A DNA stretch of 64,000 nt, taken from assembly GCF_025380365.1 (NCBI RefSeq), contig NZ_JAOCQF010000007.1:1-64000 (forward strand), in the 5' to 3' direction. The DNA is from Albidovulum sediminis (lineage in GTDB: Bacteria; Pseudomonadota; Alphaproteobacteria; Rhodobacterales; Rhodobacteraceae). Below the pieces are notes generated by a model. That model was given only the letters and a program-made list of their open reading frames with translations, was not told where the DNA came from and made no database searches. This document shows, one piece after another, positions 44,250 through 63,147 of this stretch. The translations under genes and the position numbers were made by a program. How positions within the stretch are numbered: the first letter of the stretch is position 1; the number at the start of each line of letters is the position of its first letter.

Positions 44250-44570
44250 ATGAGGAACTTGACCCCGGTGATCTTGCAGGCCGGACTTAAGGAGGCCCTG
44301 ACCGAAGGCGGCATCGTCGAAGCCCTCTGTGTCGAGGACGCAAAGAAGGTTCTCAATGTCTGGCAAGGCACCTGGCGCATCCAGTTGCGCCTTGGCGACC
44401 AGACGGCCCTTCTGGTGATCTCGCGCGGGCTCGAACCACGGGAGTTCAAGACCGTCACCGGTCTGATCTCCTTCGCGGTCGAGTTGGGTCTGACCACGGT
44501 CCCCGTTCCTTTGAAGAAGGGCGAAAAGGCGACCTGGACCCATGACACAGCGGTGGAGCCCATTCCCTGA
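44250..44570 (+). CDS. Conserved hypothetical protein at head of virB operon
   Basis: This 106-residue soluble protein has no signal peptide. It is alpha/beta with [38 protein letters not shown] and [12 protein letters not shown] near the end. It overlaps the start of virB1 by 29 bases, which ties it to the operon. Its position before virB1 suggests a transfer-regulation role. I do not recognise its family. Confidence 0.55.
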
Positions 44571-45252
44571 TCTGACCCTCGGCTCAGGGCTGGCGCTTTG
44601 GCTCATTGCCGCACAAGGTGCCCAGGCCGAGGTCATCGACCTTGGGGCAGGGACAGAGGACCTGCGGGTTCGGGCCAGCGTTCTCGATTTTGGCAAAGAG
44701 CTTCCCAAGCGCGGCGATCTGAACGACGCCGAGTTCACAAATAATGCTGAGACCGACGCAACTGACGAAGGTCTCGTTGTGCTTGCGTCCTATGGCACGT
44801 CCCCGGAGGACAGGGGTCCGCGTGGCACAGCCGAAATCGAGGATCTCGTACTCGACGTCGGCGACGACTACCTCCGCCATCCGGCGCTGAAAGCGGCCGG
44901 TCTCTCCGGGACGGAATGGCTTGCGCTCTTTCGGGCAAACATCGCAGTGGAATCCGCATTCAATCCGGATGCGCGCTCATCGGTCGGTGCCATCGGGCTT
45001 GGGCAACTGATGCCCGGAACCGCCGATCTCCTCGGCGTCGACCCCCACGATCCGGAAGACAACCTGCACGGCTCGGCCCGCTATCTTCTCGCCCAGCTTG
45101 AAGACTTCGGCGCCGCCGATCTTGCTCTGGCTGCCTACAACGCCGGCCCCGAAGCGGTCCGCGACTATGGCGGCATTCCCCCTTATGCCGAAACCGAGGG
45201 CCATGTGGCCAAGGTTCTGCGGCTGACCAACGCAACCCTCAGTTCGGAGTAA
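44542..45252 (+). CDS. virB1: VirB1-like lytic transglycosylase
   Basis: This 236-residue exported protein has a signal (residues ~14-30) and a C-terminal SLT domain. The catalytic Glu is in [11 protein letters not shown], and [17 protein letters not shown] and [13 protein letters not shown] are the SLT motifs II and III. It opens peptidoglycan locally for assembly of the type IV secretion system. A second transglycosylase of this type lies at 48494, fused to a VirB5-like region. Confidence 0.88.
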
Positions 45253-45257
45253 TCCCC

Positions 45258-45572
45258 ATGTTCCGCAGTCTTTTTGGCGCGCGATTGCCGCGCCTGGCTT
45301 TGCACACCCTTTTGCTGTCGCTGCCCTTCGCGGCAATCCTCGCAGAGCCAGCTCTCGCACAGAACCTCGATCCCCTCGAAAACATGTTGCAGACCGTGGT
45401 CGATGCACTGACCGGCCCGATCGGGCGGCTGATCGCCATCCTTGCCGTGGTGGCTGCCGGCTACATGATGTTCACCGGCCGCCTGAACTGGCCCCTCTTC
45501 CTTGCGATCTTCTTCGGCGTGGTTCTCGTCTTCTCGGCCGCGACCATCATCGACGGCTTTGCGGCCCCCTGA
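45258..45572 (+). CDS. virB2: VirB2-like major pilin
   Basis: This 104-residue pilin precursor has a long signal peptide (to ~residue 35, cleavage near ALA-QN) and two hydrophobic segments (~57-72 and ~80-98) joined by a short basic loop (TGRLN). This is the TrbC/VirB2 design that forms the conjugative pilus. It lies 5 bases after virB1, in the canonical virB order. Confidence 0.9.
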   Translation: MFRSLFGARLPRLALHTLLLSLPFAAILAEPALAQNLDPLENMLQTVVDALTGPIGRLIAILAVVAAGYMMFTGRLNWPLFLAIFFGVVLVFSAATIIDGFAAP

Positions 45573-45629: not shown

Positions 45630-45914
45630 ATGTTCCCCATGCATGACGCGCCCCTGTTTCTCGGCCTCACCCGGCCGCCGAAGATCTTCGGCCTGCCCAT
45701 CGGCTATTTCGTGAGCCTGATGCTGGGATCGGTCATTCCCTTCGTGGGCGCGAACGACTGGCGGTTCCTGCTGATTGGGGTCGTCGGCTATCCGGTTCTG
45801 TGGTTCGTGGCAGACCGCAACCCGAACCTCTTCGAGACAGTCGCGGTGGTCTTCTCCCGGACCCCGCGCACCCGAGGCAAGTCAGCTTTTGGCGGAGACC
45901 GCCATGTCAGCTGA
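45630..45914 (+). CDS. virB3: VirB3-like inner-membrane protein
   Basis: This 94-residue protein has the motif LFLGLTRPPKIFGLPI and two close hydrophobic segments (~22-40 and ~45-60), typical of VirB3. It assists pilus assembly with VirB4. A later ATG at 45639 is an alternative start. virB4 begins inside its last codons. Confidence 0.88.
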   Translation: MFPMHDAPLFLGLTRPPKIFGLPIGYFVSLMLGSVIPFVGANDWRFLLIGVVGYPVLWFVADRNPNLFETVAVVFSRTPRTRGKSAFGGDRHVS

Positions 45915-48282
45915 CCTCAAATCCCTCTTCCCGGCCACCCTGGCGCTTCGATCGGTCTTGCGGCATGAGGATCTCGCAGCCGAGACCCTCGCCCGGCACT
46001 TGCCCTGGCTCTCCGCACCTGCGGACAATCTGATCCTGACCCGGCAGGGTGACCTGATCGCCTCTGCCGTGGTCGAGGGGCAGGACAGTTTCACGTCGGA
46101 AGAAGGGGACCTCTCGCTCGCGACCACTTCGCTTGCGCGTCTGATCGGGCAGCTGGGCGAAGGCTTCGGGTTCCATGTCTCCAAGCTGACCCTGCCGGAC
46201 GCACCCCAGCTGAAACCCTTTGATGGCGAGGGCACTGGAGCCGCGTTTGCCTCCATGGTTGACGCCCGCTGGCAAGGACATCTCCGTGCCCGCACCCTGA
46301 AACGCCGGGTGCTGGTGGTCTCGCTCATCCTTCGCCCCACAGCACTAAAACGTGTCCCTTTGATCGGCGCACTCTTCAAGGCAGCCTTCACAGGCGACCT
46401 CGGCCAGAGGATCGAGCGCCTGAATGAAGCGATGGGTCTTTTGGCCGGGGCCTGCCAGGGTCTGGGCTTCCGGCGGCTGACCGTTTCCTCCGGGGAATGG
46501 CTGGGTCTCCTTGGCGTCCTTCTTGGGCAGCCGATGGCCAAGGTGCTTCCGATGCGCGGCCAATTTCTTGCCGAGGCTGTCGCGTCATCGCAGATGATCT
46601 TTGCTGGCAAACGGGTGGAAATCGAAACCGGCGAAGGGATGCGTTTCGGGACGATTTTCGGCGTGAAATCCTATCCGGCCCGCACCTGGGCGCGGATGCT
46701 CGACGCGCTGGAACTGCCCTACGACATCGTCATCACCAACAGCTTCACCCCCGCGCGCAACAACGAAATCGAAGAGCGCATCAAGCGCACGGCACGCCAG
46801 ATGCGTGCCTCTGAGGATGCCGCCGAAACTCTGCGTCAGGAACTTTACGAGGCCGCAGACAATGTCGCCTCGGGCCGACAGGTCTTCGGCAAACACCACC
46901 TGACGGTCATGGTCACGGCCGAGACCCCGGAACAGCTGGAAGAGGCTGCCTCCGAGGTCTGGCGCGCCGGACAGGACTGTGGGGCAACCCTCGTCCGCGA
47001 AAGCTTTGCAGCCCGCGCGGCTTGGTTTGCCCAAGCCCCAGGCAACTGGGCCTATCGCCCGCGCACGGCACTTCTGTCAGCCCAGAACTTCGCTCATCTC
47101 GCGGCACTGCACCGGGTGACGGAAGGTCGGTCCAAAATGCAGTCGCCCTGGGGCGAGACGATCACGGCGCTGCCGACGGTGACCTCAAGCCTCTATCGCT
47201 TCAATTTCCACGACAAGGGTGAGCGGGGTGCCGAGCCGAGCGCCGGTCATACCCTCGTTCTAGGTCGCACAGGGTCGGGGAAGACCCTCGGCACTGCCTT
47301 TCTGATGGCACAGGCGCGGCGGGTTCATGCGCGCATCCTCGTCATCGACAAGGACCGGGGTCTCGAGATGGCCGTGCGTGCTTTGGGTGGCAGCTATTCC
47401 GCGATCCGGATCGGCGAGGCGACCGGCCTCAATCCGTTCCAGACCGAGACCGACGAGCGCGGGGCGGCCTGGCTCACCGACTGGCTCGGTGACATCCTTG
47501 CAGGGTCGCGCCCCTTCGAGACCGCCCAAACCGTCAGCCTGAACGCCGCCGTCCGTCAGATCGTTTCGGCCGATCCCCGGCTCCGGACATTCGATGGCCT
47601 CGCCACCCTCGTCGCTTCAACAGACGACGAGGGCGATCTTGTGGGCCGGGTCCGGGAATGGGGGCAGGGAGGCCGACATGGCTGGCTCTTTGGGCCCGGT
47701 GCCACATCCCAGATCAGCCTCTCCGAGGATGTGGTCGGCATCGACATGTCGGAGATCCTTGATCTCGGGACCGAACGCTCGGCACTTCTTGCCTATCTCT
47801 TCCGTCGCATCGAACGGGTCATCGAGGATCGCCGTCCGACCCTCATCGTCATCGATGAGGCCTGGAAGATGCTTGACGATCCGATCTTCGAAAAGCGCCT
47901 GCATGACTGGCTCGTCACGATGCGGAAAAAGAACGCCGTGGTGATGATGCTGACCCAGACACCGACGCATCTGACCCGGGTCAAGGTTGGGCAGATCATC
48001 GCAGAGAGTGTGGTGACCCAGCTTCTCTACCCGAACCCGCGCGCCAACCCCGAAGATTACCGGATCCTGCGGCTGAACGAGAAAGAGGCCGAGTTCCTCT
48101 GCACGCCGACGGGTGGCCTGCGCCTCGCCCTCCTGCGCTCGGCCGGAGACTCGGTCTTCGTGAACATGGACCTCGCCGCCCTTGGACCTGCGCTCGCCGT
48201 GCTTGGCGGTGGCCGATCCGGCGAAGACCGCGCCCCCTATGGCTGGCGGGATACTCCCGATTTCTGGAAGGACATGACGTGA
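45904..48282 (+). CDS. virB4: VirB4 ATPase of type IV secretion
   Basis: This 792-residue ATPase drives pilus and substrate-channel assembly at the inner membrane. An N-terminal CagE/TrbE domain precedes the ATPase domain, with Walker A GRTGSGKT (~454-461) and Walker B LIVIDEAW. I chose the ATG at 45904, which overlaps the virB3 end. An earlier in-frame Met would lie inside virB3. MLTQTPTHLTR is a motif of the VirB4 RecA domain. The stop overlaps the next gene's GTG. Confidence 0.94.
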   Translation: MSADLKSLFPATLALRSVLRHEDLAAETLARHLPWLSAPADNLILTRQGDLIASAVVEGQDSFTSEEGDLSLATTSLARLIGQLGEGFGFHVSKLTLPDAPQLKPFDGEGTGAAFASMVDARWQGHLRARTLKRRVLVVSLILRPTALKRVPLIGALFKAAFTGDLGQRIERLNEAMGLLAGACQGLGFRRLTVSSGEWLGLLGVLLGQPMAKVLPMRGQFLAEAVASSQMIFAGKRVEIETGEGMRFGTIFGVKSYPARTWARMLDALELPYDIVITNSFTPARNNEIEERIKRTARQMRASEDAAETLRQELYEAADNVASGRQVFGKHHLTVMVTAETPEQLEEAASEVWRAGQDCGATLVRESFAARAAWFAQAPGNWAYRPRTALLSAQNFAHLAALHRVTEGRSKMQSPWGETITALPTVTSSLYRFNFHDKGERGAEPSAGHTLVLGRTGSGKTLGTAFLMAQARRVHARILVIDKDRGLEMAVRALGGSYSAIRIGEATGLNPFQTETDERGAAWLTDWLGDILAGSRPFETAQTVSLNAAVRQIVSADPRLRTFDGLATLVASTDDEGDLVGRVREWGQGGRHGWLFGPGATSQISLSEDVVGIDMSEILDLGTERSALLAYLFRRIERVIEDRRPTLIVIDEAWKMLDDPIFEKRLHDWLVTMRKKNAVVMMLTQTPTHLTRVKVGQIIAESVVTQLLYPNPRANPEDYRILRLNEKEAEFLCTPTGGLRLALLRSAGDSVFVNMDLAALGPALAVLGGGRSGEDRAPYGWRDTPDFWKDMT

Positions 48283-48485
48283 CACGACGCAACCGCCTGA
48301 TCCCCCTTTCCCTTCTCGGGTTCACCCTTCTTTCCGCCTGCGCCGGTGTCGAGACGGGGGCCGTCTCCCCCTGCCACGGTCAGTTCCGGGCCGAGGGCAA
48401 ATACTTCGCAGCGCACGAGCAAAGTGACGGCACGACGGTCGTCGTCTCGACCATGAACGCCCCCGACGCGCCTTGCGCGGACTGA
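48279..48485 (+). CDS. Small lipoprotein (VirB7 or entry-exclusion candidate)
   Basis: This 68-residue protein has a lipobox LSAC (Cys ~21) and two more Cys (SPCHG and APCAD). The GTG start overlaps the virB4 stop as GTGA. Small lipoproteins in virB clusters are VirB7 (between B6 and B8) or entry-exclusion proteins. No other VirB7 candidate is present, so either role is possible. Confidence 0.6.
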   Translation: MTRRNRLIPLSLLGFTLLSACAGVETGAVSPCHGQFRAEGKYFAAHEQSDGTTVVVSTMNAPDAPCAD

Positions 48486-48493
48486 GCCACCTC

Positions 48494-49597
48494 ATGCGTC
48501 GTGCCCCTCTCCTTCTCGGGCTTCTCCTCGGCACCACGGTGCCTATGGGCCTCATGGCCCAAGGCGTGCCAATCATCGACGGCTCGCGACTGTCGAACTT
48601 CATCTCGCGTCTTGTCGAACAAGCCGAGGATGCCGTGAAACAGGGGGAGAAACTCGCCACGCGCACGGAACTCAGCGAGATCGAAGACGACCAGCTGGCT
48701 GCCTATGAACGTTTCCTCGCGGATACGACCGGCGTGACCGACCTCAGCGGCTTCGAGATAGGATCCGGCACCTTCCCCCCTGCCGACGAGGTCTATCCCC
48801 TTGAGGAGACAAGCCCGGAAAGCCAGCGGCTCTTCGGGGATGCCGAGACGGTCGAGGCGATGATCATCGCCACAGCGGCGCGCTATGAAACGCATCCCGG
48901 TGTCGTGAAGGTCGGGCTCACGCCCACAACTTGGCGCATTCTCTTCCAGTCGCTGGTGAAACAGGAAAGTGGGTTCTCCAACGCGGCGATTAGCCCGGTC
49001 GGGGCCATGGGCTTTTGCCAGTTGATGCCCGGCACCGCCGCTGATCTCGGCGTCGATCCGACCGATCCGCTGCAGAACCTCGATGGTGGCGCACGCTATC
49101 TCGCGACACAGCTCAACAGCTTCGGTCGGATCGACTTCGCGCTTGCGGCCTACAATGCCGGACCCGGCAACGTCCAGAAATACGGCGGCATCCCACCCTT
49201 CGAGGAAACCCGAGCCTACGTCCGCCGGATTTCTGGCTACTACGACGCCTATCTCTTAGTGATCACCGGCGCGGACGTGACGGGCACGCTGGCGGGCGTG
49301 GAAGGCGCAAGTGCGGAATGGGGCAACATGTCCTCGGCCTTCATCGGCTATTCCGGCCAGCAGTCGGGGCAGATCGAGGCGGCCATGGCCCGGATCAAGG
49401 GGTTCTTGGAAGAGGCCAAGCCCCAGACCCCGAAAGAAGCGGTCGACCAGAACACCTACATGCTCGCCGAGCGCGCGCGCCTCATGGCCCTGACGCTGCG
49501 GCTGCGCGCGGGTGCCGTCAAGGTTGAAGCCGCGCGTGGGCTCTCGGATGCCGCGCAATCCCTGCAATACACCACCTTCTGGGAGTACACTCCGTGA
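48494..49597 (+). CDS. Lytic transglycosylase within a VirB5-like frame
   Basis: This 367-residue exported protein has an N-terminus (AQGVPIIDGSRL after a signal) that matches the mature start of the VirB5 protein next door (AQGVPVIDGTNL). The centre is an SLT domain ([37 protein letters not shown]). The C-terminal ~80 residues align with the VirB5 C-terminus: AMARIKGFLEEA and DQNTYMLAERARL here, SLARIDGLVSEIA and DLNTRMAAETNYM there. It thus looks like a transglycosylase inserted into a duplicated VirB5. I chose the ATG at 48494. Confidence 0.85.
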   Translation: MRRAPLLLGLLLGTTVPMGLMAQGVPIIDGSRLSNFISRLVEQAEDAVKQGEKLATRTELSEIEDDQLAAYERFLADTTGVTDLSGFEIGSGTFPPADEVYPLEETSPESQRLFGDAETVEAMIIATAARYETHPGVVKVGLTPTTWRILFQSLVKQESGFSNAAISPVGAMGFCQLMPGTAADLGVDPTDPLQNLDGGARYLATQLNSFGRIDFALAAYNAGPGNVQKYGGIPPFEETRAYVRRISGYYDAYLLVITGADVTGTLAGVEGASAEWGNMSSAFIGYSGQQSGQIEAAMARIKGFLEEAKPQTPKEAVDQNTYMLAERARLMALTLRLRAGAVKVEAARGLSDAAQSLQYTTFWEYTP

Positions 49598-50403
49598 GAC
49601 CTGCCGTCCTTCGAACAAGGGCGCGTCTCGCGCTCGCCGTCTGTGCAACGCTTCTGGCGTCACCTCTTTTGGCGCAAGGTGTGCCCGTCATCGACGGCAC
49701 CAACCTCGCCAAGAACATCGAGCAGCTGCAGGCCGCACTCCGCGATGCTGACAACCAGATCGCGCAGATCGAAGAGCTGAAGAAGCAGGTCGAGACCGGT
49801 CTCGAGCAGCTGACCAACCTCGAAGGCATCCTCGGGTCGATCTCGGGCCTGAACGAGATCGCGAGCCTTTACAATTCGGTGGAGGACCTGCGCTCACGGG
49901 CGGCCAAGATCACCGATCTCTCCGGTTTCCAGGATGCGCTGACCATCGGGGATTTCGATGGGCTTCTGGACAGCTTGCTCGATGGCGACGTGACCATGGG
50001 CGACAAGATGGCCGCCGAATATATGCGCGACACGCTGGAAGGGGCCGGGCTGACCTCGGAAACCCTGGCCGGGCTGTCGTCATCGGAGAACCCGCAGGAC
50101 AAGCTCATCGCGACGACCGCAGCGACGAGTGCCACGGCCATGGGCGTGGCGCAGCTTTCCTACGAGGAAGCCGCCCAAAGCCTCGCGCGGATCGACGGTT
50201 TGGTGTCTGAAATCGCCAATCAGGAGGGCCTGAAGGAAAGCATCGACCTCAACACCCGGATGGCGGCCGAGACCAACTACATGCTCGGCCAGATGTGGCG
50301 GTTGAACGCAGCTGCGGGGCTGGCCGCCGGGCAGACGGGTGTGAACTGGGCCGCAGAGCAGGCCAAGGAAAAGAGCTTCTTCGACTATTCGGGGGCCGAA
50401 TGA
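49594..50403 (+). CDS. virB5: VirB5-like minor pilin / adhesin
   Basis: This 269-residue exported protein has a signal (ending LLA-QG) and long coiled helices (NLAKNIEQLQAALRDADNQIAQIEELKKQ). The C-terminal helix carries NTRMAAETNYML. It matches the VirB5/TrbJ design of a pilus-tip protein. The GTG start overlaps the preceding stop. The upstream gene shares its ends with this protein (see that entry). Confidence 0.85.
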   Translation: MRPAVLRTRARLALAVCATLLASPLLAQGVPVIDGTNLAKNIEQLQAALRDADNQIAQIEELKKQVETGLEQLTNLEGILGSISGLNEIASLYNSVEDLRSRAAKITDLSGFQDALTIGDFDGLLDSLLDGDVTMGDKMAAEYMRDTLEGAGLTSETLAGLSSSENPQDKLIATTAATSATAMGVAQLSYEEAAQSLARIDGLVSEIANQEGLKESIDLNTRMAAETNYMLGQMWRLNAAAGLAAGQTGVNWAAEQAKEKSFFDYSGAE

Positions 50404-50906
50404 TGCGGCGGGCTTCTCACCACGTCGCGGCGGTTGTTGTCATGGTCTGCTTTACCAGCTTCGCTGCTGCGCAAGACATCGCCACTTTCAGTGACGTTCA
50501 GCTGATCGAAGAAACCCAGGAAGCGGTAGGCGCGCAGGATGCGGAGACCGCGCTGGACCTCCTGACCGAGATGCAGAGGCGCGGTACCGGCATCTTTGCT
50601 GCCGCTGACAGGCCTTCCTGCGAAGAGGTGATCGACCTGCCCGAGGGGATCACCGATTGGAAGTTCCGCGCAGTGGCTCGGCAGGCCTATTTTCGCGTAG
50701 CGATGTCGCGGCGGCTTGAAGAAGGTTCCTGCGCTTGCCTCTTCGACGGCTTCAGCTTCGACGCCTTCGTAACGGCCGCCTTAGGCAAGTCGACGGAAGA
50801 ACTGACCGATGCAGACCGTCCGGCGCTGGAACGTATCCGCGATGAAGATCGGCGTGCAACCGAGGCGCGGTTTCGCGAGCTTGAGCAAAGCTGCCGGGCC
50901 AAGTGA
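50400..50906 (+). CDS. Secreted hypothetical protein of virB operon
   Basis: This 168-residue exported protein (signal ends FAA-AQ) has four Cys (DRPSCEE, GSCACLF, EQSCRAK) that could form two disulfides, and is otherwise helical. It overlaps the virB5 stop (ATGATG) and precedes virB6 by 3 bases. I do not recognise a family; its place suggests a periplasmic part of the secretion channel. Confidence 0.6.
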   Translation: MMRRASHHVAAVVVMVCFTSFAAAQDIATFSDVQLIEETQEAVGAQDAETALDLLTEMQRRGTGIFAAADRPSCEEVIDLPEGITDWKFRAVARQAYFRVAMSRRLEEGSCACLFDGFSFDAFVTAALGKSTEELTDADRPALERIRDEDRRATEARFRELEQSCRAK

Positions 50907-50909
50907 TCC

Positions 50910-51929
50910 ATGGCCATCATCGCCGACATTCTGACCCAGGTCGATGCCGCCGCAACAGCGGTTGGCGCTACGGCATTTGATGCTGTGGCAGCCGAGATTG
51001 TGCCGGTCTTCCGGGTCGGGTCGGTCCTGGTGGTGGCTCTGATCGGGATCAACCTGATGGCACAAGCCGTGCCGATGACGCTGCGCAACGGGCTCGGCCT
51101 CATGGTTCGGATCACGGTTGCTTCGGCGTTCTTGTCGTCCTGGGCCAACTTCAATTCGGTTTATGGCGTTCTGACCAACGCCCCGAGTGAAATCGGCGCG
51201 GTCGTGATGAACGCGTTTGGGGATGGGTCGGGCAATCTCTACGAGGGTCTGGATGCCCTCTATCTGCAAGCCCTCGATGTGGGTCAGGCGATCAGCCAGA
51301 ACGGCAGCTACATCACCGGCGCCCTCGCGGGCCTCCTGATGTTTCTTGTGGCAGCCCTTATGGCGACCGTGTCGATCATCGTGATCTCGGCCGCGAAGAT
51401 CATGATCGGCGTCCTCGTCATCTTCGCGCCGGTCGCAATTGCCTGCACGCTCTTCAAGGTCACCGCCCCGCTCTTTGACCGATGGGTGAACCTCGCCCTC
51501 GGCTTCGCACTCTACCCGATGCTTACGTCCGGAATGGCGGCGTTCACGATCTACATCGCGGCGGACCTCACCCCGGCCTCTCTCGCCTCGGTGGAAACCA
51601 TCGGCGATGTCCTGAGCTTCGTCGTCGTCATGATGCTCGGAACCGGCCTCATGGCCATGGTGCCCACGATCGCACAGTCCCTCGCGTCGACCGCGACCGG
51701 TCTCGGCAGCGTCGCGGCCTCGACCTTCCGCACCGCCGACAGCGTCAAGGGTTACGGCCGCACCGGCATCGCGTCCGGGATCGGCGCAGGCCGAGGAGCG
51801 GCTGGATTGGATGCCGGTGGTCGGCGTCCCTCGGACGCTCGCCTCAACGGCAATACCGCCGGACAGATCGGGCGGTCCGCTGTTCAGACCGCGATGCGGC
51901 TTGCGAGCCGGACACCGGACAAGAGCTGA
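50910..51929 (+). CDS. virB6: VirB6 polytopic channel protein
   Basis: This 339-residue inner-membrane protein has about six hydrophobic helices (from ~38-60 through ~235-255) and the conserved FDRWVNLALGFALYP stretch of VirB6/TrbL. It forms part of the inner-membrane translocation channel. The C-terminal ~80 residues are hydrophilic and Gly/Arg-rich. The virB8 ATG overlaps its stop. Confidence 0.9.
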   Translation: MAIIADILTQVDAAATAVGATAFDAVAAEIVPVFRVGSVLVVALIGINLMAQAVPMTLRNGLGLMVRITVASAFLSSWANFNSVYGVLTNAPSEIGAVVMNAFGDGSGNLYEGLDALYLQALDVGQAISQNGSYITGALAGLLMFLVAALMATVSIIVISAAKIMIGVLVIFAPVAIACTLFKVTAPLFDRWVNLALGFALYPMLTSGMAAFTIYIAADLTPASLASVETIGDVLSFVVVMMLGTGLMAMVPTIAQSLASTATGLGSVAASTFRTADSVKGYGRTGIASGIGAGRGAAGLDAGGRRPSDARLNGNTAGQIGRSAVQTAMRLASRTPDKS

Positions 51930-52621
51930 TGTTCCAGAATTCGAGAAGTGGAGGACCGCCCATGGAGGCGCATGGATTTGATGTCGATCTCGTTCTGGAG
52001 CCCCGCCTCTCGGCCCGGCGTGCCTGGATTGTCGCGAGTACCGCGGGCGGACTGAGCCTGATTCTTGCAACCGCGCTGGTGCTCGTCCTGCCCTTGCGGG
52101 AAACCCAGGTCTTCACCGTCCTCGTCGATCGACAGACCGGGGACGCCGAAAACATCCTGAGGGTCGCCCCGACCGGCATCGAGGATCAAGAGGCACTGAA
52201 ACAAAGCCTCCTCGTGGCTTACGTCTCCGACCGCGAGGGCTATTTCCTTGCGGGCATTCAGGCCCGGCTTGAGAGCGTGCAGCGCCGCTCAACAGGGGGC
52301 GCCGAGGAAAGCCTGCGGCTTCTCTGGTCGAAAGGCGGCGGCAACACGGCCTATCCGCCCGATGTCTATGGGCCAGGCGCAGAAGTCACGGTGACCGTGC
52401 GCCGGATCACGTTCCTTTCGCCGAACGTCGCCCAGATCCGTTTCCTGAAAACCCTGCGCAAGACGAAGCAGGAGCCGGTGACCCAGCCTTTCGTTGCCAC
52501 GGTCGAGTTTGCATTCGAGCCGAAGACCGAGCGCTCCCTCGCCCACGTCTGGGAAAACCCGCTAGGCTTTACCGTCTCGGCCTACCGCGTCGACGCCGAA
52601 ACCCTGGAAACGAATCCATGA
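51929..52621 (+). CDS. virB8: VirB8 inner-membrane assembly factor
   Basis: This 230-residue bitopic protein has one N-terminal helix (~37-57) and an NTF2-like periplasmic domain. Motifs such as DREGYFLAGIQARLESV and PLGFTVSAYRVDAET match VirB8. The ATG at 51929 overlaps the virB6 stop. A second ATG at 51962 has a better ribosome site (GGAGG with seven-base spacing) and may be the true start. Confidence 0.9.
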   Translation: MFQNSRSGGPPMEAHGFDVDLVLEPRLSARRAWIVASTAGGLSLILATALVLVLPLRETQVFTVLVDRQTGDAENILRVAPTGIEDQEALKQSLLVAYVSDREGYFLAGIQARLESVQRRSTGGAEESLRLLWSKGGGNTAYPPDVYGPGAEVTVTVRRITFLSPNVAQIRFLKTLRKTKQEPVTQPFVATVEFAFEPKTERSLAHVWENPLGFTVSAYRVDAETLETNP

Positions 52622-53367
52622 GCCGTTCTTTTCTCCTTCCGGGACTTGCCTTCGCCTGCGCCCTCGGCATCGCGAGTGCCGCTTCTGCCGAAATCGCCCC
52701 CGCCTCGATGGGCGCGGATGCCCGTGTCCGGTCGGTCCTCTACAACCCCGTCGATGTCATCCGGCTCGACACGCATTTGCGTGTGAACACCGCCATCGAA
52801 CTGGGTGCTGGCGAGCGGATCGACTCGGTCCTTCTTGGCGACAGCGAGGCCTTCGAGGTCGAGGTGCTCTCGAACCGCACTACGGTTTCCGTGAAACCCC
52901 TGATCGCCGGGGCCGAGACCAACATGACGATCTATACCGGGCGGCGCACGATCTCGCTGTCGATCGGCGAGGGCAGGTCTCGTAACCCGACCTATCGGCT
53001 GGTCCTGCGCTATCCCGAGACGGGCACAAGCCGGGCGACCCGTGGCACCGTGTCCGCAGGGTCGCGCGACATCGGCTATGCCTGGTCGGGCGATGAGACC
53101 CTGAAACCCGTCCATATCTGGAACGATGGGCAAGCGACGTACTTCGCCTTCGCCCCAGGCCTCCGGCCGTCGATCTTCGGTGTGGATGCGACGGGCCGCG
53201 AAGTGACGCTGAACTCCGGCACGCGAGGCAGCATCGTCCGCGTCTCCGGCCTGCGCTCCGCCTATTCGATCCGGATCGGCACGCAGGTTCTTTGCATCGA
53301 GCGGGTAGATGGCGGCGTGACCACCGATCTGGCCCTGCTCGCCAAGCTTCAGGGATGGGAATTCTGA
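52618..53367 (+). CDS. virB9: VirB9 outer-membrane core complex protein
   Basis: This 249-residue exported protein has a signal (ending ASA-EI) and two beta domains. The C-terminal half has the VirB9/CagX motif YAWSGDETLKPVHIWNDGQATYFAF. It forms the outer-membrane core with VirB10 and VirB7. The start overlaps virB8 as ATGA. Confidence 0.92.
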   Translation: MSRSFLLPGLAFACALGIASAASAEIAPASMGADARVRSVLYNPVDVIRLDTHLRVNTAIELGAGERIDSVLLGDSEAFEVEVLSNRTTVSVKPLIAGAETNMTIYTGRRTISLSIGEGRSRNPTYRLVLRYPETGTSRATRGTVSAGSRDIGYAWSGDETLKPVHIWNDGQATYFAFAPGLRPSIFGVDATGREVTLNSGTRGSIVRVSGLRSAYSIRIGTQVLCIERVDGGVTTDLALLAKLQGWEF

Positions 53368-53368
53368 C

Positions 53369-54691
53369 ATGGCTGATCCCGAGATGACCGATCCGAAGAC
53401 GGGCGCCGAGCCGGAATACAAGGTCGAGCGACCCAAGCCGAAAATGACCCGGCAGCAGCGACTTGGCATGGGCGCACTCTTGGCCGGAGCCAGCCTTGCC
53501 GCGCTCTGGACGGTCTGGCCTTCCAGCCGCACAATCCCCGATGTGGAAACCTCAGCCGTCGAGGAATTCCAGGATCAGGCGGGCGGCTCGCCCTTCGGAG
53601 CGATTGAGCCGGGACCGGAAGCTAAGCCCTCAGGTGATGGGTTCTCAGACATCGAAGGGGAACTGGCCTCACAGCGCGAAGACCTCGAAGCGCGGAACGC
53701 CACACTCCAGTCCGAGGTTGAACGGCTGCAGCGCGAGTTGGGTGATCTTGCCGACAAGGCCGATGCCGAGAAGGACCAGACAGCCAAGGAACTGGCGCTC
53801 GCCCTAGAAGAGGCACAGTCGCAGAACATTGCTCTGATGGAGGACATGCGACGGCAGTTCGATCAGGAGATCGCCGTCCTGAAGGCAAGCGCCGACACTG
53901 CGGGTGCCGCGGAAGCCCAACGAGAGGCTGAGTTGGCGGCCAAGCGTGCCGAGCGCGAGGCGCAGCTTGCGGCCCGCGTGGCGTCACCTTCGGTCGTCTT
54001 CGACGATGGTCAAAAGGGTGGGGCAGGGGATGCCCGTATGGGGATGCCCGAGGCCCCAGCCGAGGGTCGAGATGCGACAGGTCGGGATTTCGTACAGTCG
54101 GGGCGCGAAGCCACCACCACGGAAGTGAGCCAGGTGATCGCCAATCCGTCAAACACCGTCCTGCAGGGCACGATGATTGAAGCAACGCTTGAGAATGCGG
54201 TCGACTCGAGCCTACCTGGCCAGATCACAGCGATCGTGACCCGGCCGGTCTGGTCCTTCGATCAGGCCCAGATCCTGATCCCCGCCGGCGCGCGCCTCTT
54301 CGGAGATTATTCCTCGGACGTGGCCATCGGCCAAGGCCGCATTCTTGTCGCCTGGACGCGGCTCGTCACTCCGGATGGGCAGTCCGTGCAGATGGAGGCT
54401 TTCGGTGGGGACGCCCAGGGTCGCTCCGGCATTACCGGCAAGGTCAACACGCGCTTCGGTGCCAGGTTCGGGTCGGCTGCGCTCATTTCCCTTCTCGGGG
54501 CCGCTCCCGCTGTCGCCGCCGCGAAATACACTGACGAGATCAGTTCCGACACGGCTGAGAGCATGGGCGAGGACCTGGGTACTGCCATGGGCTCCGCGGT
54601 CGAGGCCTATACGAGCCTGCCGCCGATCATCACCGTCGCCCCTGGGGCCGCGATCACGGTCATGGTCGACCGCGATCTGGAAATCTGGTGA
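53369..54691 (+). CDS. virB10: VirB10 core complex protein
   Basis: This 440-residue protein has a cytosolic start, one helix (~33-52), a coiled region (~95-200, rich in Glu/Lys/Gln) and the C-terminal VirB10/TrbI beta-barrel domain (GTMIEATLENAVDSSLPGQI, ARLFGDYSSDVAIGQGRILVAW, TVAPGAAITVMVDRDLEIW). It spans both membranes and transduces energy. It lies one base after virB9. Confidence 0.93.
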   Translation: MADPEMTDPKTGAEPEYKVERPKPKMTRQQRLGMGALLAGASLAALWTVWPSSRTIPDVETSAVEEFQDQAGGSPFGAIEPGPEAKPSGDGFSDIEGELASQREDLEARNATLQSEVERLQRELGDLADKADAEKDQTAKELALALEEAQSQNIALMEDMRRQFDQEIAVLKASADTAGAAEAQREAELAAKRAEREAQLAARVASPSVVFDDGQKGGAGDARMGMPEAPAEGRDATGRDFVQSGREATTTEVSQVIANPSNTVLQGTMIEATLENAVDSSLPGQITAIVTRPVWSFDQAQILIPAGARLFGDYSSDVAIGQGRILVAWTRLVTPDGQSVQMEAFGGDAQGRSGITGKVNTRFGARFGSAALISLLGAAPAVAAAKYTDEISSDTAESMGEDLGTAMGSAVEAYTSLPPIITVAPGAAITVMVDRDLEIW

Positions 54692-55665
54692 TGGATGATC
54701 GGCCGAGCTTCCTCGGGTCCTACCTGACGCCAATTGCGCCGCTGTTCTTACGGGACGATCTGGTCGAGGTGGCGATCAACCCGGATGGAAAAGTCTGGAT
54801 CGAGCGAAAGGGCGCGACGCACATGGAGCGGGTCGCGCATCTGTCCATCGATCGGGTCCTGTCTAACAACCTTGGGCAGGCAATAGCTTCTGCCGTTGGT
54901 GTGCAGTTCTCCGACAAGAAGCCGACCGTTTCGGGAAAGATCGTCTTGGGCGATATGGCGATCCGGGCGCAGGTTGTGGCGCCGCCCATAGTGGAAGGCG
55001 GGATGGCTATCACGTTCCGGCCATTCAAGGTTTCGGCCGATCAGCTGATCGAGCCGCGCCTCTTACACGGTGGTCTTGTCGATCTCGACGCCAAGCGTCG
55101 GGCAAGGGCAGGGGAGGCAATGAAGCTTGCTGAGGCGGGGCAGGTCGTCGAGGCCATGCGGCTTTGCGTCGAGGAGCGCATGAACATCCTGAACTCTGGC
55201 GGCACCTCGACCGGCAAGACGACATTTGCTCGGTCTTTGTTGTCGATGGTGGACCCGGGCGAGAGGATCCTGACCATCGAGGATGCCTATGAGCTGTTCC
55301 CCCGTCAGGAGAACGCGGTATCGCTTAAGGCTGATCGCAGTGCCCAAGGCGAACGGACGCCTGCGCGGCTACTGGAAGCCTCGCTTCGGATGCGTCCAGA
55401 CCGGATCATTCTTGGTGAGTTGCGGGGTGAGGAAAGCCGGACCTTCCTGGAAGCGATCAACACCGGCCACGGTGGTTCGTTCACAACCATCCATGCCGAC
55501 ACCGCCCGGAAAGCCATAGATCGGTTGGCGATCATGGTCATGGCCGCCGGGCTGGGCATGGGGTTCGAGGAGGTGAAGCGGTACTGCGAGGGAAGTGTGG
55601 ATCTGGTGGTGCAACTTTCGCGGCAGGCTGGGCGGCGTGGGGTGGCGGAGATACTGTGCCTGTGA
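54691..55665 (+). CDS. virB11: VirB11 hexameric traffic ATPase
   Basis: This 324-residue cytosolic ATPase has Walker A GGTSTGKT (~170-178), the Asp box ILTIEDAYELFP, Walker B-like RPDRIILGELRGEES and the GHGGSFTTIHAD His box. It powers pilus assembly and transport. It overlaps the virB10 stop (GTGATG). A GTG at its 3' end begins the next, truncated gene. Confidence 0.94.
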   Translation: MDDRPSFLGSYLTPIAPLFLRDDLVEVAINPDGKVWIERKGATHMERVAHLSIDRVLSNNLGQAIASAVGVQFSDKKPTVSGKIVLGDMAIRAQVVAPPIVEGGMAITFRPFKVSADQLIEPRLLHGGLVDLDAKRRARAGEAMKLAEAGQVVEAMRLCVEERMNILNSGGTSTGKTTFARSLLSMVDPGERILTIEDAYELFPRQENAVSLKADRSAQGERTPARLLEASLRMRPDRIILGELRGEESRTFLEAINTGHGGSFTTIHADTARKAIDRLAIMVMAAGLGMGFEEVKRYCEGSVDLVVQLSRQAGRRGVAEILCL

Positions 55666-59414: not shown

Positions 59415-61259
59415 TTAGACCCGAGTCGGCACTTTCCGTGTGTGCTTGGCGCTCTCCGCAATTGCCCGAAACACCCGCGCCGCCTCCCCGAAGACCTCGG
59501 CATCTGCCTGTCCGGCGGACGCAGCCAACCCCGACAGTTTTCCAACGGCGATTTGCCTGCCAACCGCTCCGCTTCCCGGTATACTCGGCAATCCCTTACC
59601 TTTCCGCGCTCGATCAATCGGGGCAAAGTGCCGATCCTCGAAGTACCGGATGTGCCGCGCCCGGATCGGATACTGCCCCTCGGGCAGCACCAGCACCTGA
59701 TTCAGCGGAAACCGCAGCACTTCGTTTGCCGAAATCAACGGCCGCTCTTCCGACCGCCTGCTGACATTGGCACTGTCCTCCAGGGCGCGAACCCGCGACT
59801 GGCTCTCGGTCACTGCCGTTATGGTGGAGCGCCCCAAGGCATTCGAGAGCACCTCGGCGGTCCGATCATCTTGTGGCGTCATGTAGATCTGCACCCCGGC
59901 CCCACCTTGCAGAGAGCGCCGCCCGGTTTCGCCATAGATGTCATCAAGGCCGGGAATGGTCTGGGAGATGATGAAGAAGCGCCCGCCGAAGCTGCGTATG
60001 GTCTTGATAGAAGAAAGAACAAGGGGCTGTCGGCCCAGCTGGTCGAATTCGTCCATCAGGAACATGACCGCATGGGGTTCGTCCTGACCAGGCTCACGGC
60101 GCTGGAGGGAGGCGATGGCATCCGCGAAGAGCAGACGGACGAGGGGGGCGAGAGTTTTCAGGTGCTCGGGCTGGACGACGATGTAGAGGCTTTGGGGATC
60201 GCGGCGGAAGGTCGAGAAGTCGAAGTCGCTGGCGGAGGTCACGCGGTCGACCGCGGGGTCGTTCCAAAGCTCGAGACCGGAGCCTTGGATGACGGACACA
60301 TAGGCGCCGAGGGTCTTCTCCGGGACGTCGGCCATCTCTAGGAAGGTGCGGGAGATGATCGGGATGTTCGTGGTCTCGGCAATGGCCGTATAGCTCTTCT
60401 TCTTGTCGCCACCCCCGGCCATGATCTCACCGGCAAAGCCCAAAGTCGGGCGGCGCTGTTCGATGGCGTAGAGGCACGAGGCGATGAAGAGCCGCTTGCC
60501 GGCATTGAAGAAGCTCTGGGCGCTTTCGCCTTCCGGGATGAGGAAGAGGTCGGCCATCGAGTTCAGCGCGGTGTACTGACGCTCAGCGGAGGGCAGGGCG
60601 GCGATCCGGGCAAGCGGGTTGAACCGGTGCGAGCTCCGGTCCTCATCGAAGGGCGAGAAGTACCAAATGCCGTTCTTCAGCCCATGCTTGCGGTGGATGG
60701 AGGTCTTGGCGAAGTTCTCACCTTTCACGTCGAGGATGATCGCCGAGCCTGAGAAATGGAGGAGGTTCGGGATGACGAAGCCGACTCCTTTCCCCCGGCC
60801 CGTGGGGGCGATCATCATCGCATGCGGGAAGCGGTCTGGCGGCGCCATCACGAAGGGCGCGTCGGACTTCGGAAGGCCGAGCTTGCCGAAGATGAAACCG
60901 TTCTGATCGAGGGTTCCGACCATGTGGTTTCGCTTCAACTCGCGACGCGACTGGAAATGCGCGTCGTCATACTGGTTGAGGCGGCCGCGATGTACCCCAG
61001 CTAATCCGACGAGCGTCAGCGCGACCGTCACAGCACCGGTGATGATCAATGCGCCCTGCAGGACTGAAGGCCGCGCGGCGAGGTCGGCCCATTCGTAGCG
61101 CAAGAACCAGGGGCCTGTTGGGCTAAGCGTATCGAGGCTCTCCCGGAAGGCTGTGATCACATAGATCGTCGCCAGCATGCCGCCGATGTAGAGACCCGTC
61201 AGCAGTCCAAGGAGCAGCGCCAGCGGATACCGCCAGGCGGTGTCGAGATTCGAAAGCAT
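59415..61259 (-). CDS. virD4: VirD4/TraG coupling protein
   Basis: This 614-residue ATPase brings the relaxase-DNA complex to the secretion channel. Two N-terminal helices (~12-38 and ~68-88) are followed by the motor domain with Walker A APTGRGKG (~151-158) and Walker B VMFLMDEFDQLGR. The VirD4 hallmark ISQTIPGLDDIYG is also present. The ATG at 61259 has GAGGACAG upstream. It follows the relaxase gene on the same strand. Confidence 0.94.
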   Translation of the reverse strand: MLSNLDTAWRYPLALLLGLLTGLYIGGMLATIYVITAFRESLDTLSPTGPWFLRYEWADLAARPSVLQGALIITGAVTVALTLVGLAGVHRGRLNQYDDAHFQSRRELKRNHMVGTLDQNGFIFGKLGLPKSDAPFVMAPPDRFPHAMMIAPTGRGKGVGFVIPNLLHFSGSAIILDVKGENFAKTSIHRKHGLKNGIWYFSPFDEDRSSHRFNPLARIAALPSAERQYTALNSMADLFLIPEGESAQSFFNAGKRLFIASCLYAIEQRRPTLGFAGEIMAGGGDKKKSYTAIAETTNIPIISRTFLEMADVPEKTLGAYVSVIQGSGLELWNDPAVDRVTSASDFDFSTFRRDPQSLYIVVQPEHLKTLAPLVRLLFADAIASLQRREPGQDEPHAVMFLMDEFDQLGRQPLVLSSIKTIRSFGGRFFIISQTIPGLDDIYGETGRRSLQGGAGVQIYMTPQDDRTAEVLSNALGRSTITAVTESQSRVRALEDSANVSRRSEERPLISANEVLRFPLNQVLVLPEGQYPIRARHIRYFEDRHFAPIDRARKGKGLPSIPGSGAVGRQIAVGKLSGLAASAGQADAEVFGEAARVFRAIAESAKHTRKVPTRV

Positions 61260-61269
61260 GGGTCTGTCC

Positions 61270-63147
61270 TCAGAGTTCGTGGCCGGTGTCGCGCTCGACA
61301 GCACGATCGCGCTGCCCCAGTTCGGCAGCGCGATGCTGCGCCCGTGCCAGATCTGCCCAGGGTCCGACCTCGCCCGATTGACCGAGGTCTCCTTCGTTCT
61401 TCAGTTCATGCGCGACGGCCGCCCGGAGTGCTGGATCTCGGACCTGCTCGTTGAGCGGGGCGAGGTCGCCGGACCGGACGCGGTCGAGATCCTCGGGTTT
61501 CAGGGTGTCGTGCAGGCGGTCGACGATGGCTTCCAGCGCGGGCACCTCGGAGAGCCTCATATGGCGATCGGCGTTCAGCAACTGGTCGCGCGCAACGGCC
61601 TCGGTCAACTCCGGCGCTAGGTTGAAAGCCGCGACTTCCGCCTGAACCTCCTGTCCCAAAGCGCGCTCCGTTTCCATCCAGAACACCTTTTGCATTGTGT
61701 TCGGCTGCTCAGTAATCCAGCTCGCCCGCTGGCCCTCACTGCGCTCGGCCAAACTGAAGCGGGCGACCATTTCCTCGACGGACGTGCCGGCTATGCGAAG
61801 CTCATCTTCCCGGATCGAGAACAGCGCCGTCAGCCGTTCGCCGATCTCGTCGCGAACATGTGCAAGGGTCGCGCGAAGACCTTCGTCGAGGGAAACCCCC
61901 TCGGTCTGGCCTTGGTCCAACCGCTCAAGCGAGGCGAGGGTCGGGTTGTGATAGGGATCGGTGTTCCGGTCGGCAACTTGGGCATGCTCTGCGAGGAGGA
62001 TGCTGTCGGGTGCGAGTTTCAGCGAGGCGCGGGCCTGCTCGGCAAAGCTGCGCTCCAGGTCGACCCGCTCGGCAGAGGGTTCCATGGCGCGAATTGCCTC
62101 CCAGGCCTCTGTGGCCGAAGCGATCATCTCGTTGCGCGCTGCCTCAACCCGTGTGGCGGGGTCGCCTTCGGCATGAAGCGAGTGATCGGGCATCAGGGGA
62201 ACTCCTTGTCTGAGAGCGGCGGCAGACGCGCCAAGCGCCCGGGCCAGCCGGGAAAGGTAGGAAGCGGCACTTGCCTCGGTGCCGGTTGCGGCGGCAAGGT
62301 CGGCGAGGTCGCCAAGGGTCTTGTATTCACGGGCGAAGCCCTGCATCGCGGCGAGCCGTCGGCTCCGCTCCCCGTCAGACAGCGGCGGCGGGGGAGGTGG
62401 CGTGGCCTTCCCGCCCTCTCGCGATGCACGCAGCTCGGATTGGCGCGGCGGGTTCTCGACAATGCCGCGGGAAAGGCGCGACGAGGCGAGGATGTTCAGC
62501 CCATGCGACTGACTGATCTCGGCGTGAAGCTCGCGCATCACATCGAAGTTCAGCGCGGCATGACGACAGATCGATAGGAATCGGCCTTCCTCGATGCCAT
62601 GCTTATCGACCACGAAATGCGCATGCAGATGGTCAGTGTCCTTGTGCAGGGCAGCAACGTATCGCCAGACATCCCCATACTCACCGGACCCGAACACAGC
62701 TTGCCCCCATTCCCGGGCGATGACCTCAGCACGTTCGGCGTCCACCCCCCGCGGAAAACTCAGGACGATGTGATCGGCATGCCCCCGACGCGGCGCACCT
62801 GTCCAGGTCGAAGACCAGATATCGGCCGTCCGCTCCGTTCGGGCAGGATCGAAATCACGCTCATAGCCCGCCAGGTTGCACCAAGTGCTCTGCACCCCCT
62901 CTTCCCGGGCCACATAGTCGAGAAGGCGCTTCAGCTCCTGTGGGGTGCGGGCGCTGCCGCCGGCGATGCGTTTGACGACCGACTGCCAGCCACGGGGCCC
63001 ACCAGCGTTTCGCAGAAGCGCCCGGGTCTGGCGTTCCTTGCGCGTGCCGAGACGGGACGATGAGCCGTCGCCACCACCCCGCCCACGACGACGGTCGTCG
63101 AGAACATGACCGAGAACCAGATCCTCGACGGAAGGCGACCGGGTCAT
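61270..63147 (-). CDS. VirD2/MobP-type relaxase
   Basis: This 625-residue DNA-nicking enzyme shows motif III, HKDTDHLHAHFVV (His168, His173, His175, His177), which binds the catalytic metal. Motif I contains the likely Tyr nucleophile at Tyr78 (LLDYVARE). The long C-terminal part is helical and Glu/Arg-rich. It nicks oriT and is carried with the transferred strand. The start overlaps mobC as ATGA. Confidence 0.92.
   Translation of the reverse strand: MTRSPSVEDLVLGHVLDDRRRGRGGGDGSSSRLGTRKERQTRALLRNAGGPRGWQSVVKRIAGGSARTPQELKRLLDYVAREEGVQSTWCNLAGYERDFDPARTERTADIWSSTWTGAPRRGHADHIVLSFPRGVDAERAEVIAREWGQAVFGSGEYGDVWRYVAALHKDTDHLHAHFVVDKHGIEEGRFLSICRHAALNFDVMRELHAEISQSHGLNILASSRLSRGIVENPPRQSELRASREGGKATPPPPPPLSDGERSRRLAAMQGFAREYKTLGDLADLAAATGTEASAASYLSRLARALGASAAALRQGVPLMPDHSLHAEGDPATRVEAARNEMIASATEAWEAIRAMEPSAERVDLERSFAEQARASLKLAPDSILLAEHAQVADRNTDPYHNPTLASLERLDQGQTEGVSLDEGLRATLAHVRDEIGERLTALFSIREDELRIAGTSVEEMVARFSLAERSEGQRASWITEQPNTMQKVFWMETERALGQEVQAEVAAFNLAPELTEAVARDQLLNADRHMRLSEVPALEAIVDRLHDTLKPEDLDRVRSGDLAPLNEQVRDPALRAAVAHELKNEGDLGQSGEVGPWADLARAQHRAAELGQRDRAVERDTGHEL

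Follow-up and report, generated by a model that had tools for sequence, protein, structure and literature searches.

Here we describe a gene whose product carries the two ends of the conjugation protein VirB5 on either side of a lytic transglycosylase domain. It lies in a 64,000-nucleotide stretch of the Alphaproteobacterium Albidovulum sediminis (contig NZ_JAOCQF010000007.1, positions 1 to 64,000; hereafter the window), directly before the virB5 gene of a conjugative type IV secretion system (T4SS). On the evidence of sequence profiles and structure models, this protein, called the hybrid below, is a VirB5 paralogue in which an SLT lytic transglycosylase replaces the middle domain. A preliminary description of the same DNA had proposed a transglycosylase set inside a duplicated VirB5. 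The paralogy and the SLT domain are borne out, whereas an insertion into an intact VirB5 is not, as the middle domain has been replaced.

The hybrid and the adjacent VirB5 occupy the positions previously given for them. In the following layout, the mature hybrid is taken to begin at QGVPIIDG.

48494..49597, + strand: hybrid gene, 367 residues, with VirB5-type ends and an SLT lytic transglycosylase middle (open reading frame, PF01464, profile comparison)
48494..48559, + strand: Sec-type signal peptide (residues 1-22 of the hybrid), assigned by visual inspection of the sequence
48560..48745, + strand: N flank, mature residues 1-62, similar to VirB5 mature residues 1-62, with the QGVPxxD motif and a long helix (hhalign E 5e-14; helix 8-56 in the model)
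48845..49270, + strand: SLT catalytic domain at the fold level, mature residues 96-237 (structure model and fold comparison)
48938..49210, + strand: Pfam SLT match (PF01464), residues 149-239
48965..48967, + strand: catalytic glutamate E158, aligned with Slt70 E478 and Pseudomonas aeruginosa Slt E503
49292..49594, + strand: C flank, mature residues 245-345, similar to VirB5 mature residues 139-240, with two long helices (hhalign E 9.6e-12; helices 246-285 and 291-341 in the model)
49594..49597, + strand: four-base overlap of the hybrid stop and the VirB5 start (coordinates of the open reading frames)
49594..50403, + strand: canonical VirB5, 269 residues, GTG start (PF07996, 66.7 bits)

The ends that the two proteins were said to share are indeed common to them: AQGVP(I/V)IDG stands at the start of both mature proteins, and the C-terminal elements ARI.G...E, NT.M.AE and RL occur in both. 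The tail reads FWEY in the hybrid and FFDY in VirB5, which is near the pattern described and agrees with shared ends, although not letter for letter. Judged from the profile registers and from the order of helices in both structure models, the SLT domain stands in place of the globular middle domain of VirB5, mature residues about 63-138.

Flanks and catalytic domain

The VirB5 character of the flanks was assessed by comparing three pieces of the mature hybrid (N flank, SLT segment, C flank) separately with a VirB5 profile (hhalign). The hybrid side consisted of 38 aligned hybrids minus three rows of the Hyphomicrobiales type (L079, L090, L118), the VirB5 side of 37 rows, and rows with more than half gaps were omitted for each cut. 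The N flank falls on VirB5 residues 1-62 with a score of 78.4, and the C flank on residues 139-240 with a score of 73.1. In the controls, 40 column shuffles per flank reached at most 19.7 (N) and 16.9 (C), and the reversed flanks 20.4 (N) and 13.2 (C). The SLT segment gave no match to the VirB5 profile (E 0.5), while the whole hybrid profile matches the whole VirB5 profile with an E of 2.2e-23. Three invariant positions of the C-terminal helices are held in common, namely R300, N320 and E326 of the hybrid and R199, N220 and E226 of VirB5.

Hidden Markov models (HMMs) of the flanks were then run on all 3,800 open reading frames (ORFs) of the collected loci, 65 of them VirB5-like and 3,669 classed as other. 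It is important to note that the 65 were selected by their matches to an HMM of the whole hybrid, and that the window recurs as loci L001 and L003. The C-flank model finds 64 of the 65 at E<1e-3, with the best stretch C-terminal in 65/65, and the matches below 0.01 in the class of other ORFs are limited to two fragments of hybrids and two VirB5 proteins of Rhizobiaceae (E 0.0096). For the N-flank model, 61 of the 65 lie at E<1e-3; the one strong match among the others is a VirB5 interrupted by a run of N, and the rest are at 0.54 or above. No reversed ORF came below 0.06 with either flank model (best 0.064 for N, 0.73 for C). In the opposite direction, a VirB5 HMM recovers 61/66 hybrid ORFs at E<=1e-3 and places two stretches on the hybrid of the window, one at the N end (E 1.3e-9) and one at the C end (E 7.2e-6); beyond the hybrids and the 65, its only matches were two fragments of hybrids and the N-containing VirB5. 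In locus L056, a long VirB5 ORF was considered as a second fusion and rejected, its length being due to a run of N.

A test independent of our choice of neighbours is offered by PF07996, which 11/15 hybrids match at E<=1. When 10 hybrids were rescanned, three exceeded the cut-off of 24.7 (L024 with 29.0, L025 with 36.4 and L026 with 36.9), and the matches keep the VirB5 register, with N parts on profile positions 1-74 or C parts on 111-194. The hybrid profile also reaches TrwJ of R388 (7o3v; E 0.006, residues 5-62, signal peptide included), and the VirB5 family profile matches both TrwJ (7o3v) and TraC (1r8i).

Several observations limit the case for a VirB5 origin of the ends. Without the QGVP motif, the N helix is a weak probe: it finds 36/65 VirB5-like ORFs at E<=10 and 6/65 at E<1e-3, and the best reversed ORF reaches 0.018. 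Seven of the ten rescanned hybrids are under the PF07996 cut-off, four with matches below it and three unmatched at E<=0.1. The hybrid of the window (P0001) itself scores 17.9 bits, and a second hybrid of the same genome, on contig C19, has no PF07996 match at E<=1; the case could therefore not be rested on this family. TIGR02791 was not listed for P0001 in the family scan either. The model of VirB5 is poor (see below), and a structure search with the hybrid model returned only SLT-type, lysozyme-like folds among the matches listed. The likeness of the flanks to VirB5 is for this reason drawn from sequence profiles and helix order.

It could be supposed that the flanks are generic helical regions resembling VirB5 by chance or composition, and pairwise BLASTP, which gives an N-terminal match (E 4e-7) and at the C-terminus misses the true register and offers false ones, would fit that explanation, as would the weakness of the N helix deprived of its motif. 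The gap between real scores of 73-78 and shuffled or reversed scores of at most 20.4, the near absence of matches among the other and reversed ORFs, and the in-register matches to a Pfam model built independently of these neighbours leave it scarcely credible. The ends of the hybrid thus almost certainly derive from VirB5, and the generic coiled regions that the preliminary description had named as the outcome that would overturn its proposal were not what the alignment gave.

The SLT domain was described as complete, which is confirmed by a nearly full-length PF01464 match of 72.4 bits against a cut-off of 21.3. The AlphaFold2 model of the mature hybrid has a mean predicted local distance difference test (pLDDT) value of 86.3 and a predicted template modelling score of 0.72, and consists of helix 8-56, the SLT domain, and helices 246-285 and 291-341. 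The VirB5 model (pLDDT 54.8) has the same order of elements, with helix 8-65, small elements at 70-135, and helices 140-178 and 186-235. Using this low-confidence model, the structure search yielded nothing significant (best E 0.18; the VirB5 homologue CagL at 0.39). Neither structure search is taken as evidence about the flanks. The SLT part of the hybrid model, on the other hand, matches 5mpq with a Z of 16.9 and a root-mean-square deviation of 1.8 over 128 residues. E158 aligns with E478 of Escherichia coli Slt70, which we take to be the catalytic glutamate of that enzyme, and with E503 of P. aeruginosa Slt, where the titles of structure entries ('E503Q inactive mutant') agree with a catalytic role. 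This glutamate is invariant in the two alignments of hybrids (15/15 and 38/38), and many SLT positions around it are also invariant in the 38. The conserved residues and the modelled fold make it very probable that the hybrid is an active muramidase.

Genomic setting and descent

The window carries a complete P-type conjugation module, in which a VirB1-like SLT protein, VirB2-VirB6 and VirB8-VirB11 are accompanied by VirD4 and a relaxase on the opposite strand. The combination of virB2-4, 5, 6, 8-11, a coupling protein and a relaxase marks the module as a P-type (MPF_T) conjugative T4SS, with a candidate VirB7 described below. Apart from the hybrid and VirB5, the features are:

44542..45252, + strand: VirB1-like SLT protein at the operon head (PF01464, 62.9 bits)
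45258..45572, + strand: VirB2 pilin (TrbC; family match)
45630..45914, + strand: VirB3 (family match)
45775..48282, + strand: VirB4 ORF, its true start probably downstream of the first codon (family match)
48279..48485, + strand: small secreted protein, lying between virB4 and the hybrid and bearing a lipobox-like LSAC (sequence; no family above its cut-off)
50400..50906, + strand: small secreted protein between virB5 and virB6 (no Pfam match)
50910..51929, + strand: VirB6 (TrbL; family match)
51962..52621, + strand: VirB8 (family match)
52618..53367, + strand: VirB9 (CagX; family match)
53369..54691, + strand: VirB10 (TrbI; family match)
54688..55665, + strand: VirB11 ATPase (family match)
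59418..61304, - strand: VirD4-type coupling protein (PF02534, E 6.5e-82)
61273..63147, - strand: MobA/VirD2-like relaxase (PF03432, E 8.8e-12)

A separate VirB1-like enzyme, which had been pointed out at 44542, is accordingly found there. The contig of the window measures 87.8 kb, and we infer that it is a plasmid because it bears this module and because a plasmid of Tabrizicola piscis has a 97% identical hybrid. In the T. piscis plasmid the coupling protein follows directly after virB11, and the stretch between these genes in the window therefore looks like an insertion; it holds, with its neighbours, a pyridine nucleotide-disulphide oxidoreductase at 55950-57377 (- strand) with features that we take to be mercuric-reductase-like (GTCVNVGCVPSK, C-terminal CC). 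The small LSAC protein has a counterpart annotated just before the hybrid in 10/13 opened plasmid loci of the Rhodobacterales type, and could, from its sequence, be VirB7 or a partner of the hybrid. The protein at 50400-50906 is secreted, bears cysteine and belongs to no known family; in some other plasmids the slot between virB5 and virB6 is occupied by entry-exclusion genes.

The neighbours of 64 hybrid ORFs were surveyed, the window being counted once. A VirB5-like ORF was recognised beside the hybrid in 58 of them, which is every readable locus of the Rhodobacterales type (58/58). Five of the remaining six are of the Hyphomicrobiales type, where VirB5 is too divergent for the filter and a VirB5-like ORF follows each hybrid, and one has N in its VirB5. 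The hybrid and virB5 overlap by 4 bases in 40/58 pairs and by 1 base in 7/58. An upstream VirB1-like SLT gene is seen in 55/64 loci; the other nine have less than 4.6 kb of upstream sequence, and absence is hence not demonstrated for them. In the loci read, the hybrid occurs only with VirB5 and, where visible, with VirB1. The converse does not hold: an Acuticoccus plasmid (L039, 4953-9286) has the order virB1-2-3-4-5 without a hybrid, and offers a natural comparator.

Judged by ratios of nonsynonymous to synonymous substitution (dN/dS; 15 pairs, some with dS >1), all segments of the hybrid are under purifying selection. The values are 0.02-0.30 for the N flank, 0.01-0.28 for the C flank and 0.02-0.14 for the SLT domain (computable in 14/15 pairs), with 0.01-0.18 for VirB5.

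In the SLT tree, hybrid SLTs are on one side of a branch and VirB1 SLTs elsewhere, with a support of 87, below the starred level of 95. The hybrid label needed two changes in a first tree, in which the hybrid fragment L045 was unlabelled; it was relabelled in a later tree, from which nine loci were omitted for their long branches or distant SLTs (L041, L093, L095, L102, L103, L104, L106, L121, L122). Constraining all 68 hybrid SLTs, Hyphomicrobiales included, to one origin raises the likelihood (approximately unbiased test, p 0.705), and the Hyphomicrobiales SLT may thus share one origin with the others. An SLT derived from the local VirB1 by duplication is unsupported, the hybrid SLTs being apart from the VirB1 SLTs (few columns, many open forks). 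Nor does the hybrid behave as a VirB1 orthologue, since its slot is just before virB5 rather than at the operon head and its SLT lineage is separate. The name VirB1, which the preliminary description had given to this part, holds as an enzyme class and not as a statement of descent.

The flank tree, built after four rows without the motif had been dropped and with long branches flagged, mostly separates hybrids (2 changes) from VirB5s (3 changes). The VirB5 of the same locus is 27.5% identical to a hybrid and the other VirB5s 24.1%, the own VirB5 having a median rank of 7.5 among 61 (n=56). These data do not support the idea that VirB5 was duplicated locally, whether recently or more than once. 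As the hybrids are mostly separate from the VirB5s, and their SLTs from those of VirB1, both the VirB5 duplication and the SLT split look old, with few columns and many forks unresolved.

The A. sediminis genome holds a second hybrid-VirB5 pair on another contig (C19; locus L002), with a hybrid 41% identical to that of the window, and two hybrid-bearing systems appear to coexist in one cell. A tblastn search of PLSDB with the hybrid matched 1,273/72,556 records, in 270 of which a single place spans 80% or more of the query; many of these are near-copies from Phaeobacter and Pseudosulfitobacter. The hybrid profile has matches at E<=1e-42 in 94 of 248 Rhodobacteraceae genomes (247 genera), many of them over the SLT only; 52 genomes reach E<=1e-98 (listed rows), 49 of them nearly end to end, our own genome included. 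Full-length matches were found in 4/337 genomes of a class-wide sample (three Rhodobacteraceae, again with the own genome, and one of another family) and in 7/349 of a phylum-wide sample, all Rhodobacteraceae. Matches outside the Alphaproteobacteria at E 1e-36 to 1e-44 were rejected as hybrids, their ranges being SLT-only. The hosts include Phaeobacter, Sulfitobacter, Dinoroseobacter, Paracoccus, Salipiger and Gemmobacter, and one Martelella (Hyphomicrobiales), on a plasmid whose virB system is traced to Rhodobacterales in a passage of PMC5613091. In the opened Rhodobacterales-type plasmid loci, the hybrid stands directly before virB5 in 13/13, and virB4 is annotated upstream in most, the Salipiger and Yoonia records excepted.

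An SLT protein is encoded at the same position on plasmids of Sinorhizobium, Ensifer, Agrobacterium and Mesorhizobium. At eight Hyphomicrobiales loci, the N end of this protein matches the VirB5 of its own locus at E<1e-5 in 7/8 cases and at 6.5e-4 in the eighth (signal peptide included), while the C end matches VirB5 weakly, with no confident tie. Proteins at L035, L037, L038 and L040, on Rhizobiaceae and Phyllobacteriaceae plasmids (e.g. L035:4704-5792), combine a VirB5-like N end with a different, cysteine-containing C end (TGVCDP...EKACV), and may, from their sequences, represent a second design on this principle.

The 126-kb plasmid of Dinoroseobacter shibae DFL-36 carries the hybrid. Conjugation of the 126- and 191-kb plasmids of D. 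shibae is reported in a passage of PMC4886583, and the plasmids tested there presumably carry the hybrid too.

Possible role in conjugation

According to passages of PMC9259494 and PMC12624023, VirB5 assembles as a pentamer on VirB6, in the periplasm of the donor, and is thought to be pushed outward while the pilus grows beneath it, so that it ends at the pilus tip. VirB1 enzymes, as treated in parts of PMC12857230 and PMC12624023, open the donor wall early. We lean slightly towards an overall reading in which the hybrid is a VirB5-paralogue muramidase that docks on the VirB6/VirB5 axis and cuts peptidoglycan there, possibly at the tip. Its physical location on this axis, taken by itself, is rather probable. 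Docking on the axis is the best explanation that we can offer because a VirB5-type body carries the muramidase, the gene overlaps virB5, and the enzyme is additional to VirB1.

The sequence of events would be the following. The hybrid would be exported via Sec, and its VirB5-type helices would occupy the VirB5 site of the VirB6 stalk, in an assembly of their own or in one shared with VirB5. This would keep the SLT domain on the axis of the machine, and it could cut peptidoglycan exactly where the stalk and pilus pass, in the donor periplasm or, if carried out at the tip, in the recipient. Opening of the wall for core-complex assembly would fall to the ordinary VirB1, encoded first in the operon, and the hybrid would make a second, machine-tethered cut.

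The more specific idea, raised in the preliminary description, that the muralytic activity is placed at the pilus tip would have the hybrid join the VirB5 tip complex, leave on the end of the pilus, and cut the peptidoglycan of the recipient in the manner of a phage tail. Such a placement is consistent with the VirB5 biology in the portions of PMC9259494 and PMC12624023 cited above; we regard this version as doubtful.

A counterweight to the axis reading is that action on the donor side, without any tip, would explain the same data. The VirB5 ends would then tether the protein to VirB6/VirB8 in the donor periplasm, where the SLT would widen the wall for the stalk and stay behind as a second VirB1. 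That VirB1 enzymes act on the donor wall, in the passages already quoted, fits this alternative, and so do the Hyphomicrobiales relatives with their VirB5-like N end and weakly similar C end, as if the full VirB5 bundle were not required in every case. A second donor enzyme would, however, be redundant, as all 55 loci whose upstream DNA is long enough have a VirB1-like SLT; the hybrid SLT lineage is apart from those VirB1s, and both VirB5 ends are retained in Rhodobacterales. We consider confinement to the donor a serious possibility, if the lesser one.

It is much less probable that the SLT is non-catalytic or regulatory, serving as a peptidoglycan-binding anchor or gate of the VirB5 assembly with no need of cutting. 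VirB1 is indeed, in the relevant part of PMC12857230, not consistently essential for T4SS function. The catalytic glutamate and its many invariant neighbours in 38/38 aligned hybrids, and the low dN/dS of the SLT domain, speak against a domain that need not cut. A freely secreted muramidase that is directed at competitors and is no structural component of the T4SS, which the SLT domains of phage tail and lysis proteins (PHROGs matches) would bring to mind, is highly improbable in view of the conserved VirB5 ends and the constant slot in the virB operon, adjoining VirB5 in all 58 readable loci, 40 of them with the four-base overlap.

Should the tip version be true, a T4SS would pierce the wall of its target enzymatically, as phage tails do. 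Passage through the outer membrane and peptidoglycan of the recipient is described as poorly understood in a section of PMC12624023, where a VirB5 that pierces the wall or forms a pore figures as a standing hypothesis. With a natural VirB5 paralogue that has a wall cutter for its middle domain and is kept on many plasmid-borne systems of one family, the question of the recipient wall becomes addressable at a single residue, the catalytic glutamate.

Relation to known systems

Public annotation mostly calls these genes 'lytic transglycosylase domain-containing protein', a label that is corrected here to VirB5-SLT hybrids. In the literature, too, genes of this slot were met only as enzymes. For pYEE5 of Paracoccus yeei, a passage of PMC6209633 gives two 'Lytic murein transglycosylase' genes, one of them between VirB5-like and VirB4-like genes, and states that both could serve as VirB1; for D. 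shibae, a part of PMC9426580 lists a 'lytic glycosylase' in the slot. From slot and size, we infer that the pYEE5 gene between the VirB5-like and VirB4-like genes and the D. shibae gene are the hybrid. The fusion was not described in the open-licence PMC titles and abstract starts that the searches listed, which is weak evidence of absence with subscription papers and preprints outside its scope. Both parts are known, and their combination and position are new so far as the literature was searched.

The PrgK-type hydrolases of Gram-positive bacteria have a CHAP/SLT make-up. These VirB1-type multidomain enzymes (PrgK and its kin) resemble the hybrid in being wall hydrolases fitted to conjugation by extra parts, as set out in passages of PMC12857230; unlike the hybrid, none is described there as joined to VirB5, which Gram-positive systems are said in the same passages to lack, with Patescibacteria as the one exception.

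By analogy only, the hybrid may also be likened to phage-tail or injected muramidases (tape-measure proteins and internal virion transglycosylases), which set a wall cutter on the target-facing part of an injection machine. Its SLT matches phage families in a profile search (PHROGs), whereas no sequence relation was seen outside the SLT, and those enzymes belong to tail machinery and not to a T4SS.

With VirB1/TrwN/TrbN, the hybrid shares a PF01464 SLT with its catalytic glutamate, a gene in the virB operon and an apparent signal peptide. It differs from them in the place of its gene, which precedes virB5 instead of heading the operon, in its VirB5 ends and separate SLT lineage, and in coexisting with a VirB1-like gene. 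VirB5/TrwJ/TraC (PF07996, TIGR02791), proteins of the pilus tip and stalk in P-type T4SSs, agree with the hybrid in an apparent signal peptide, the QGVPxxD start, one long N-terminal and two long C-terminal helices, and an adjacent gene. These proteins have a middle domain of their own where the hybrid has the SLT, and in the loci read the hybrid accompanies VirB5 and does not replace it.

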